DNA from: Candidatus Poseidoniaceae archaeon
GTDB lineage: Archaea > Thermoplasmatota > Poseidoniia > Poseidoniales > Poseidoniaceae
DNA: 23,399 bases
Assembly (NCBI GenBank): GCA_013330765.1
Contig: DUHU01000148.1
Span: 1,021-24,419, forward strand
Reading direction: 5' to 3'
Under the pieces are notes generated by a model. It was not told the DNA's origin. It searched no databases and was given only the letters and a program-made list of their open reading frames with translations. Below, piece by piece: positions 7,340 to 16,574 of the stretch; position 1 is the stretch's first letter; each line of letters starts with the position of its first letter. Both the position numbers and the translations under genes were made by a program.

Positions 7340-8119
7340 ATGGGGGTCAGTGACCGTGTGGGGGACGCCCTCGGGCGAGCCGTGGACCAGCGGATGCTAC
7401 GTGAGGTCTTGGCCCACGAGATTCGACCACAACACATGGCCATCATCATGGACGGGAACCGCCGTTTCGCGTTCCGAAACCGCCTGACTTCCGGCGTGGG
7501 CCACCGGATTGGCAAGGCCAAGCTGGAGGAAGTCTTGGACTGGGTTCTCGAATTGAACATCCCTTGGTTTACCGTCTACGCCTTGTCCACGGAGAACCTG
7601 AAACGGCCGGAAAACGAGTTGGATTCCCTCTTCAACCTGTACATCGAGGGGCTCAACGACATCGCCGAAGACGACCGAATTCACGCCAACGAAGTGCGCG
7701 TGCAGATCATCGGGCGACGTGACCTCTTGCCTGCAAAGGTCATCGAAGCCATCGACAACGCTGAATCCCGCACCGCAAATTACGACCGATTCGTGTTCTC
7801 TGTGTGCCTTGCTTACGGCAGCCGTGAAGAGATCCTTGACGCCATTCGGGCGATTGCGGCCGATCATGCCAGCGGCCAATTGGAGCTTGGCGACATCGAC
7901 GAAGCGGCGGTGTCGGACCGCCTGTACACCGCGGACATGCCCGATCCTGATTTGGTCATTCGAACCTCAGGAGAGGAACGCATCTCGAACTTCCTGCTCT
8001 GGCAAATGGCCTACGCTGAATTGTATTTCACCGACGTGTACTGGCCCTCGTTCTCGAAGCGGGAATTGTTGAAGGCGATCAAAGCCTTCCAACAACGCAA
8101 GCGCCGGTATGGAGCGTGA
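7340..8119 (+). CDS. uppS: Cis-prenyltransferase (undecaprenyl/polyprenyl diphosphate synthase family)
   Basis: Adds isopentenyl diphosphate units in cis to an allylic diphosphate, making the long polyprenyl lipid that archaea use as glycan carrier. The 259-residue product has the catalytic block AIIMDGNRRFA with Asp38, then GHRIGKAKLEEVLDW, TVYALSTENLKRP, and the C-terminal signature DLVIRTSGEERISNFLLWQMAYAELYF ending in the YWPSFS region. All family motifs are intact and length is normal. The ATG at 7340 follows GGTGA by six bases. The downstream NUDIX gene starts within or right after its last codons, so the two form one transcript. The nearby phosphomannomutase and DUF354-like genes fit a role in glycolipid or glycoprotein synthesis, but are not in the same operon. 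Product chain length cannot be read from sequence. Confidence 0.96.
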   Translation: MGVSDRVGDALGRAVDQRMLREVLAHEIRPQHMAIIMDGNRRFAFRNRLTSGVGHRIGKAKLEEVLDWVLELNIPWFTVYALSTENLKRPENELDSLFNLYIEGLNDIAEDDRIHANEVRVQIIGRRDLLPAKVIEAIDNAESRTANYDRFVFSVCLAYGSREEILDAIRAIAADHASGQLELGDIDEAAVSDRLYTADMPDPDLVIRTSGEERISNFLLWQMAYAELYFTDVYWPSFSKRELLKAIKAFQQRKRRYGA

Positions 8120-8123
8120 TTCC

Positions 8124-8561
8124 ATGGGCATCTGCGACCGTTGCCAGGGGTACGAAAACCCAAGCCTCGCGGTGGACGCGTGCGTCCGTCGAGGCGACGA
8201 GGTGTTGCTCATCCAGCGCAAACATCCGCCGAACGTCGGCTCTTGGGGCTGTCCGGGCGGTTTCATGGACGTCGGGGAAACCGCCGAAGAAGGCGCCTTG
8301 CGCGAGTTGGAAGAAGAAACCGGAATCCGTGGCTGCAACCCGCGCCTGCTGATGGTCATGAGCGACCCGGCACGAGACGAGCGCAAACACGTCGTCAGCA
8401 TCGTCTACGAAGTGGACATGGTGGATTCGACGCAGGAGCCTCAACCCGGTGACGATGCAGCCGATGCGCGATTTGTGCCCATCGCTGAGGTGCTGGCCGG
8501 CGCGTACAGGCTCAACGGCGACCACGAGGACGTTCTTCGCCGATGGCTTCAGCCGTCCTGA
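8124..8561 (+). CDS. NUDIX hydrolase
   Basis: Pyrophosphohydrolase that cleaves a nucleoside diphosphate linked to another group. The 145-residue product carries a complete NUDIX box, from GGFMDVGETAEE through RELEEETGI, with all metal-binding Glu residues. It opens with a short Cys motif (CDRC, residues 4-7), perhaps half a zinc site. ATG at 8124 was chosen because GGAG lies nine bases upstream; an in-frame ATG at 8109 would overlap the cis-prenyltransferase end by 11 bases and add five residues. The last 13 bases overlap the end of the convergent DUF354-like gene. Coupling to the prenyltransferase might mean it acts on a nucleotide sugar or a prenyl diphosphate, but the substrate cannot be inferred from the box alone. 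Confidence 0.92.
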   Translation: MGICDRCQGYENPSLAVDACVRRGDEVLLIQRKHPPNVGSWGCPGGFMDVGETAEEGALRELEEETGIRGCNPRLLMVMSDPARDERKHVVSIVYEVDMVDSTQEPQPGDDAADARFVPIAEVLAGAYRLNGDHEDVLRRWLQPS

Positions 8562-14969: not shown

Positions 14970-15245
14970 TCAGTTGAATCGGTCGTCCCACTCTCCGTTC
15001 TCAATGATTTTCAGCGCGTCCTTGGGCCAGTGGCCGTCAATCTTGACGCGCATCGCGACGCAGGTGCCAATGACCTCTCGGGTCATGGCCTTCAGGTCGG
15101 CACCGGTCAGGTCGCCTGCCTTGTCCTTGGCGACGCCGATGGCCTTCTCGAGAGGAAGGTCTTCGGTCGCCGCATCCATGGATCCGTTGCACTTCTTCAC
15201 ACCGAGCGCCTTCTTGACGAGCTCTGCGGTCCAAGGCTTGGCCAT
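14970..15245 (-). CDS. rpl11: Ribosomal protein L11, C-terminal rRNA-binding domain only
   Basis: L11 binds the GTPase-associated centre of 23S rRNA. This 91-residue product aligns throughout with the C-terminal half of archaeal L11: PWTAELVKKALGVKK matches the VPPTSxLIKKxLG start of that domain, then LPLEKAIGVAKDKAGDL, LKAMTREVIGTCVAMRVKIDG and the archaeal tail WPKDALKIIENGEWDDRF. The normal N-terminal domain of about 70 residues, with the proline-rich segment, is absent. An in-frame TAA lies seven codons upstream of the ATG and a TATA box about 50 bases upstream, so the gene is not mis-started. AGGATG seven bases before the ATG may be its ribosome binding site. It is the first gene of the L11-L1-L10-L12 transcript. 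Confidence 0.88.
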   Translation of the reverse strand: MAKPWTAELVKKALGVKKCNGSMDAATEDLPLEKAIGVAKDKAGDLTGADLKAMTREVIGTCVAMRVKIDGHWPKDALKIIENGEWDDRFN

Positions 15246-15373: not shown

Positions 15374-16291
15374 TCACTCGTTGACGCGCTCGATGACCCG
15401 CACGTGGTCACCGCGCATGCTGAGGGTCATCGGGATGACCTGCTCGTAGAGTTCCATGGTGACCTCTTCCTTGGTGTCGGCCACGGCGGTGATTCGGGCC
15501 TTTTCGCCCTTGAATGCGCCCGTCACGATCTCGACGATGCAACCGACGTCAATGCCGCTGGTCACGGCCTTCGGTTCGAGGTAGGGGAGGATGTTCTCTA
15601 GAGGCGCCTCGCCAGGAAGAACGGATTTTGCATTCTTCAGGGGCGTGAGGTTCAGTCCACGGCGAGCCTTTGGGTCGCGGCCGCCGGCGCGGCCGATGAG
15701 CTTCTCAACGTGGTGCTTGGCGCTGGCTTCGACGAACACGTAGCCCCGCATGCTGTGCGGGTGCACGATGGACATGATTTCGTCCTTCAGCGTACGGAGG
15801 CTTCCACTGCCGTGGATGCGCGCGTTCATCTCAGATGCCAAGCGCTGCTCGGAGCCGATGGCGGACTTGACGATGTAGAGGAACGAGCCGACGGAGCCGT
15901 ACATTTCCTTGAACAGCGTGTCAGCTCCTTCCATCTCAAGGTCAGAGAAAATGCAGTTGTAGTCTTGCAAGTTTCCGGGGTCAATCCACTCTGCGGCGTC
16001 GTAAACGCCGGCGGGAGTGACCTCGTCGCTGGACGACACCACAAGGTAGGGAATCACGTCAACGAGGGTCCGCCCCATGTCGATTCCGCGGTCGGGACCT
16101 TCCTTGTGGAGGGACAGCTGATCTGGGGAGAGGCCGGTGACTTCTGCGACACGGGCCAGCACTTCTTCAGGCGTGGACCCGCTGCCGTAGACGCCGTCCC
16201 AGAAGCCGGGGAAACTGGCGTCAGAACTGTGGCGGCGGAGGAGGAGAAGTTTCTCTTCGTGGCGAACGTAGGCAATGAAATCTGTCTGCAT
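15374..16291 (-). CDS. spt5: Spt5/NusG fused to an N-terminal degenerate NUDIX-like domain
   Basis: Transcription elongation factor that clamps archaeal RNA polymerase and links it to ribosomes. Archaeal Spt5 is usually about 150 residues; this product has 305. Residues about 136-240 form the NGN domain (FLYIVKSAIGSEQRLASEM, IVHPHSMRGYVFVEA) and 246-302 the KOW domain (GCIVEIVTGAFKGEKARI, ending GDHVRVIERV). Residues 3-112 are NUDIX-like: FIAYVRHEEKLLLLRR, FPGFWDGVYG, PEEVLARVAEVTGL, then LVDVIPYLVV and EWIDPGNL. In the box, the usual REUxEExGU glutamates are mostly replaced (R47, V48, E50, V51), so hydrolase activity is unlikely. GAGGTG six bases upstream of the ATG at 16291 proves that the extra domain is translated from this gene. 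The start is ten bases after the secE stop. Confidence 0.92.
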   Translation of the reverse strand: MQTDFIAYVRHEEKLLLLRRHSSDASFPGFWDGVYGSGSTPEEVLARVAEVTGLSPDQLSLHKEGPDRGIDMGRTLVDVIPYLVVSSSDEVTPAGVYDAAEWIDPGNLQDYNCIFSDLEMEGADTLFKEMYGSVGSFLYIVKSAIGSEQRLASEMNARIHGSGSLRTLKDEIMSIVHPHSMRGYVFVEASAKHHVEKLIGRAGGRDPKARRGLNLTPLKNAKSVLPGEAPLENILPYLEPKAVTSGIDVGCIVEIVTGAFKGEKARITAVADTKEEVTMELYEQVIPMTLSMRGDHVRVIERVNE

Positions 16292-16301
16292 GTCAAGCAC
16301 C

Positions 16302-16574
16302 TCAGGGAAGGGGGATGTTGAACACGTCATGGATCAACCATGGGAAGGTGTGATCCATCAGGAGGAGGATGAGGAAGCCAATGGCGCCCAGCACCAGCAG
16401 GCCAATGCCGCAAACGATGGACGTGCGGCGGAATTCTTCAGGGCTGGGCTTGCGTGCCATTCGGACAATGCGCGCCCAGGAACCTTTGGTGATGTTCCTG
16501 CGGACCCATGCCTCAACGGCATCTTGGCGGTCCTGAACACGTTGTTCAAACGAAGGATTCGCTTCCGTGGACAT
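16302..16574 (-). CDS. secE: Protein translocase subunit SecE/Sec61-gamma
   Basis: Small membrane subunit that clamps the SecY channel. The 90-residue product has the amphipathic helix with the archaeal/eukaryotic signature (WARIVRMARKPSPEEFRRTS) and a single transmembrane helix (about residues 52-74, IVCGIGLLVLGAIGFLILLLMD), followed by a short outside tail. A charged N-terminal extension of about 30 residues is somewhat longer than usual. GAGGT lies six bases before the ATG. The gene leads the secE-spt5 unit, the usual archaeal order, and is divergent from dnaJ. Confidence 0.95.
   Translation of the reverse strand: MSTEANPSFEQRVQDRQDAVEAWVRRNITKGSWARIVRMARKPSPEEFRRTSIVCGIGLLVLGAIGFLILLLMDHTFPWLIHDVFNIPLP

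Follow-up and report, generated by a model that had tools for sequence, protein, structure and literature searches.

A Nudix-derived domain stripped of its catalytic residues precedes NGN and KOW in the Spt5 of Poseidoniales

The window analysed here, the whole stretch of 23,399 nucleotides from a Candidatus Poseidoniaceae archaeon (assembly GCA_013330765.1, contig DUHU01000148.1), carries an spt5 gene whose features and neighbours are collected in Table 1. A preliminary description of this DNA had proposed one uninterrupted 305-residue frame, which is borne out on the minus strand, from an ATG at 16291 to a stop codon ending at 15374, the plus-strand frame from 15374 being interrupted by a stop. 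The strong ribosome binding site that it had placed ahead of the N-terminal part likewise stands, with gaggtg spaced six bases from the ATG and a Shine-Dalgarno sequence of at least four bases at the N-terminal start in 48 of 49 distinct relatives (L004, the 50th sequence, was left out for an ambiguous residue). It had also considered translation starting near residue 130; in the column of Met130, 43 of the 49 relatives have an ATG codon and three a Shine-Dalgarno sequence of that length, and since this compares with 48 at the N-terminal start, neither initiation there nor a second, short isoform made from it is supported. An alternative longer start (ATG 16330, 318 aa) is less likely because it falls within the secE-like gene. 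A secE-like gene upstream and the genes for L11, L1, L10, and L12 downstream form the usual archaeal spt5 neighbourhood. The window also contains another, independent Nudix gene (8073-8558, plus strand), whose box is intact (PF00293, E 2e-24).

Table 1. Positions of spt5, its parts, and its neighbours in the window
Feature	Position	Strand	Basis
spt5 gene, 305 aa, Nudix-derived domain + NGN + KOW	15374..16291	-	frame, Pfam, TIGR00405, relatives
Putative pseudo-Nudix domain, N-terminal, residues 1-112	15956..16291	-	hhalign 110 columns; AlphaFold2
Nudix box, degenerate, residues 36-54; Arg47 codon 16151-16153 replaces RE glutamate	16130..16186	-	alignment
Linker/helix, residues 113-137, length differs between families	15881..15955	-	alignment
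NGN domain region, residues 138-240	15572..15880	-	PF03439 over 138-199; archaeal Spt5 chains
KOW region, residues 248-303	15383..15550	-	PF00467 sub-threshold 252-279; TIGR00405 to 303
Shine-Dalgarno gaggtg ahead of N-terminal start	16298..16303	-	also present in relatives
secE-like gene, directly upstream of spt5	16302..16574	-	PF00584 21.0 bits, just below cut-off 22.7
Ribosomal protein L11 gene, C-terminal domain only, directly downstream of spt5	14970..15245	-	PF00298
Ribosomal protein genes L1, L10, L12	12914..14907	-	PF00687, PF00466/PF17777, PF00428

The C-terminal part of the protein is recognisable as Spt5, with NGN and KOW behind the N-terminal domain as first described. The NGN profile PF03439 matches with E 1.1e-9 and 38.6 bits (cut-off 22.4) over residues 138-199 and is found at E<=1 in all 40 aligned relatives, while the KOW profile PF00467 stays below its cut-off (19.5 against 22.3 bits) in a region covered by the Spt5 model TIGR00405, which scores 96.9 bits (cut-off 69.95) over residues 139-303. 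The nearest solved structures are archaeal Spt5 chains (PDB profile search, E 1.3e-28 and weaker), and named database records among the best 120 of 792 protein matches call the fused proteins Spt5 or NusG. One Spt5 match was detected in the source genome (G000, 60% complete) and one in a relative assembled as a single contig (G018). An Spt4 match is present in 22 of 24 Poseidoniales genomes searched, the two without one being G000 and G014. As the sole detected copy, in a ribosomal-protein neighbourhood, the gene product is the cell's general elongation factor Spt5. It resembles archaeal Spt5 of known structure (PDB 9bct, 3p8b, 4zn1) in NGN, KOW, gene neighbourhood, and the presence of Spt4, but adds about 135 N-terminal residues forming a Nudix-derived domain.

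Searches short of profile-profile comparison barely detect this N-terminal domain: the source protein gives only a weak Nudix match (NF006961, E 0.04), PF00293 reaches E<=1 in 7/40 aligned relatives (best 6.8e-4), the same profile run over six whole Poseidoniales genomes does not retrieve the fused gene at E<=0.1, and a profile of the domain matches solved Nudix chains at E 0.1-1 at best. Profile-profile comparison settles the question of homology for residues 1 to about 112. Aligned by hhalign with a canonical Nudix family of Thermoplasmatota, the domain gives E 3.6e-15 with six sequences and E 4.6e-17 over 110 columns with 30, and reciprocally the profile of that standalone family picks up the fused domain (E 1.0e-13 in G040). 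The standalone family, whose records are named NUDIX domain-containing protein or MutT-like, matches solved Nudix structures at E 5.9e-11 at best (5cfi, 3grn, NudI, MutT). A structure prediction, proposed in the preliminary description, agrees in part: the elements of the AlphaFold2 model follow a Nudix-like order, with block mean pLDDT of 79-95 over residues 1-120 and a helix (41-52) among strands at the place of the Nudix box helix, but the full-length model is poor in its NGN-KOW part (mean pLDDT 71.8, pTM 0.58) and the placement of the domains relative to each other is therefore not predicted. A quick 88-row tree, built on few columns and with a long fused branch (2.19), places the 32 fused domains in one group (SH-aLRT 99) that shares a side with 33 standalone members, apart from 23 other Nudix rows (SH-aLRT 94). 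The Nudix-like domain first described thus holds, and its origin can be refined: its nearest relatives appear to be this separate, canonical-box Nudix family (A3/A5) of other Thermoplasmatota, which is homologous over the 110 columns but is encoded away from spt5 at the loci read and keeps the canonical acids. The window's other Nudix gene was rejected as the source, the fused domain grouping with another family.

The box glutamates, described at first as mostly replaced, prove to be altered systematically across the order in 238 fused sequences. The glutamate of the RE pair is Arg in 237 and Lys in one; the second glutamate of the EE pair, the last box position, is non-acidic in all 238 (Ser, Cys, Ala, Val, or other); and the first is Glu in 193, Gln in 21, Asp in 13, and another residue in 11. 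The strict box GX5EX7REUXEEXGU is absent from 241 fused rows, some being fragments, and the core [RK][ED]xxEExG occurs in none of these 241 rows as against 28 of 30 standalone rows. A D-W-E motif found in 33/33 standalone members, followed by His (29) or Asn (4), is also replaced in the fused form, in which Arg10, Asp32, Arg47, Tyr97, and Asp104 are invariant (32/32 rows) and are not so in the standalone family; the two share Leu16, Arg20, Trp31, Gly36, Gly53, and Trp102. With the box acids and the D-W-E-H segment replaced and new invariants in place, the metal site and the adjoining segment have thus been rebuilt. The fused domain thus reads as an order-wide, catalytically degenerate pseudoenzyme of Nudix derivation, in keeping with the degenerate domain fused to Spt5 that had been proposed. 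It is kept by purifying selection while evolving faster than NGN-KOW: where computable (11/13 pairs, dS being close to saturation in many), dN/dS is 0.012-0.152 for the N-terminal domain and 0.002-0.049 for NGN-KOW, two pairs being not computable for the N-terminal domain, and its dN is the higher in 13/13 pairs.

The fusion is spread across the order. A full-length match, from residue 1-4 to residue 303-305, was obtained in 56 of 59 genomes including the source genome, spt5 being in pieces or cut in the other three (G012, G019, and G028), and in a sample of the class the N-domain profile matches 227/271 Poseidoniales genomes (233/292 overall, six of them in the sister family f3). A second search, made with the full-length profile, took in G029 and the 44 Poseidoniales genomes lacking a match: 40 of the 44 gave no Spt5 match and the other four (G012, G085, G091, and G224) only a C-terminal piece running off the end of its stretch, which is taken as a contig end; none of the 44 shows an intact Spt5 of NGN-KOW only. 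The full-length matches, the breadth of the class sample, and the absence of an intact short Spt5 together rule out an artefact of assembly or gene prediction. Both named families of the order carry the fusion, f1 being Poseidoniaceae (protein P0094 is 99.7% identical to L029) and f2 Thalassarchaeaceae (P0157, about 72% to L047/L056). In the sister family f3 of the same class, 18/21 genomes have an Spt5 match, each NGN-KOW only (profile positions 135-140 onward), and 7/21 have a Nudix domain at another place. In one Poseidoniales genome, G033, a second, diverged piece of the N-domain (contig 252, 3011-3475; 59% identity, 162-residue frame) was found in addition to the complete gene on contig 72, perhaps through a mixed bin.

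Beyond the order, the N-domain profile at E<=1 finds nothing within the Spt5 frame at any of 35 non-Poseidoniales loci, which were chosen partly for long frames. In a sample of the phylum it matches 131/144 Poseidoniales genomes, the weakest of them, a piece in G087, at 1.9e-21, as well as 110 non-Poseidoniales genomes, the best at 3.8e-17; the top four outside frames opened (G532, G478, G553, and G542) are canonical Nudix proteins without an Spt5 part. A DUF126-like sequence precedes the Nudix domain, by eye, in most of these four. Fusion of the same canonical Nudix family behind a DUF126/AcnX swivel domain was also seen in Methanomassiliicoccales and others (L208, L219, L221, and L223) and in proteins P0261, P0284, and P0298; AcnX-type proteins act in the archaeal mevalonate pathway. 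Protein searches for relatives covered the best 120 of 792 and the best 120 of 3102 matches, and a third covered all 74 of its matches, reaching only relatives with exact words in common; a fusion outside Thermoplasmatota is possible among the weaker protein matches. A viral relative was sought among 29 stretches fitting a pattern, none of which encodes one.

Archaeal Spt5 is given as NGN and one KOW in part of a review (PMC3382729). The preliminary description likewise treated NGN-KOW as the norm, and this does not carry across Thermoplasmatota, where 18 of the 35 outside loci, read in a set favouring long frames, have a different N-terminal domain before NGN. Such domains, of roughly 110-130 residues, belong to Spt5 of other Thermoplasmatota families (L144-L159, L161, and L183), and that of L155 is predicted by AlphaFold2 to be all-beta, with block pLDDT mostly 85-93. 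Acidic low-complexity tails before NGN were noted by eye in further non-Poseidoniales Spt5 (L160, L162, L163, and L172-L174).

The neighbouring L11 gene is itself short, encoding 91 aa of the C-terminal RNA-binding domain. The L11 N-terminal domain (PF03946) exceeds its cut-off in 0/27 Poseidoniales genomes, five of which give weak matches (E 0.05-0.47), as against 7/7 other genomes and 14/14 controls. Among 58 Poseidoniales loci, a count that takes in near-copies, 52 have the short form and the other six show none; a literature search found no description of it. The truncation and the fusion lie on the same branch, which shows no causal tie between them.

Of what the domain does, the reading we prefer, and hold with about even confidence, is that a fusion on the line leading to Poseidoniales would have made of a former enzyme a docking module without catalysis, which NGN anchors to the elongation complex and to which a partner protein binds. 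For the pre-termination complex of T. kodakarensis, passages of PMC11616081 place NGN with Spt4 on the two large subunits of the polymerase, in contact with non-template DNA immediately upstream of the bubble; FttA is bound by KOW. Since NGN holds Spt5 on the polymerase together with Spt4, a domain ahead of NGN should protrude where the bubble has its upstream edge, close to the non-template strand. In that position it might offer a rigid surface bearing Arg10, Asp32, Arg47, Tyr97, and Asp104 to a partner belonging to the elongation complex or the following ribosome, and so act as a recruitment site in addition to KOW. The mean pI of 4.4 and net charge of -12.4 over about 128 residues (-3.6 in the standalone family) lean towards a protein partner, although five N-domains, ranked among 128-residue control windows drawn from uncurated open frames of one relative's genome, fall between the 8th and 31st percentiles, so that acidity is weakened as a strong argument. 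This unexceptional acidity counts against the docking module, as do the poor NGN-KOW model and the long fused branch in a tree of few columns.

Ligand sensing and a bridge between polymerase and ribosome, both put forward in the preliminary description, are candidate roles. It is possible, if on the unlikely side, that the domain is instead a ligand sensor, binding a nucleotide or another phosphate without metal and changing how Spt5 acts on the polymerase. Precedents for a Nudix-type domain reused in regulation or sensing are the inactive NUDT9H domain of TRPM2, which binds ADP-ribose according to the part consulted of PMC4974056, and the NrtR regulators, with a Nudix-like domain whose effector is ADP-ribose as told in part of PMC10311068. 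Their partners are an ion channel and an HTH-like domain rather than an elongation factor, and the C-terminal HTH-like domain of the NrtR type is absent from Poseidoniales Spt5, for which Pfam gives NGN and KOW only. The exchange of an acid for Arg at position 47 and the invariant Arg10, Arg20, Trp31, and Tyr97 would suit such a ligand; the acidity of the domain would not, and the standalone family's conserved D-W-E-H segment has been lost along with the box acids, which argues against sensing of the ancestor's own ligand. Rather unlikely, too, is a specific proposal of ligand-gated elongation, in which a small nucleotide signal bound metal-free via Arg47, Arg10, Asp32, and Tyr97 would switch Spt5 between processivity, termination by FttA, and ribosome coupling; were it true, the one universal transcription factor would be a metabolite sensor.

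A grip on nascent RNA or upstream DNA is improbable, the net charge of about -12 over about 128 residues telling against it even though the domain would lie beside upstream DNA (passages of PMC11616081). CFIm25 (NUDT21) offers a parallel as an inactive Nudix domain in a transcription-coupled machine, and in Entamoeba CFIm25, an RNA binder, three of the four box glutamates are Lys according to part of PMC3695940; it is, however, a separate RNA-binding subunit of eukaryotic 3'-end processing. More doubtful still is a purely structural cap that stabilises NGN or replaces a polymerase contact and has no partner of its own. The changes A32 to Asp and E47 to Arg, opposite in charge and both invariant, could pair in a salt bridge that closes off the former metal site, yet dN of the domain exceeds that of NGN-KOW in every pair compared, and Arg10, Tyr97, and Asp104 are kept in both families of the order all the same. 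A histone chaperone role like that of eukaryotic Spt5N, whose acidic part also lies directly ahead of NGN, is unlikely because a histone-family match exceeds the cut-off in only 2/27 Poseidoniales genomes, one of them strong; Spt5N is moreover largely unstructured and histone-binding in the portion consulted of PMC8886531, whereas the Poseidoniales domain is predicted to be folded. The strong match, to the histone fold and split in two (E 9.3e-16 and 1.3e-4), lies in the Poseidoniaceae genome G014 (contig 15, 11936-12180; L263). An active hydrolase, even one with an unusual active site making use of the first EE glutamate (Glu in 193 and Asp in 13 sequences), is very unlikely with the RE and last box glutamates gone in 238/238, the strict core in 0/241, and D-W-E lost.

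The evidence describes a true Spt5 headed by a pseudoenzyme domain of Nudix derivation, a fusion apparently undescribed in the open literature: no description of a Nudix domain in Spt5 or NusG was found among the open-access PMC articles listed. According to the part consulted of a 2022 paper (PMC8886531), only eukaryotes have the acidic N-terminal tail; additions ahead of NGN as such are not confined to eukaryotes, an unrelated domain predicted to be all-beta standing there in other Thermoplasmatota. In Poseidoniales, which a passage of PMC6461757 names as the most abundant archaea in the plankton of surface ocean waters, a former enzyme has been added ahead of NGN in every genome in which an uncut gene was found. 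That former enzyme is now part of the machinery that reads the genes, probably as a binding arm, and it poses a compact question for recombinant protein, namely what the N-terminal domain holds, and when.
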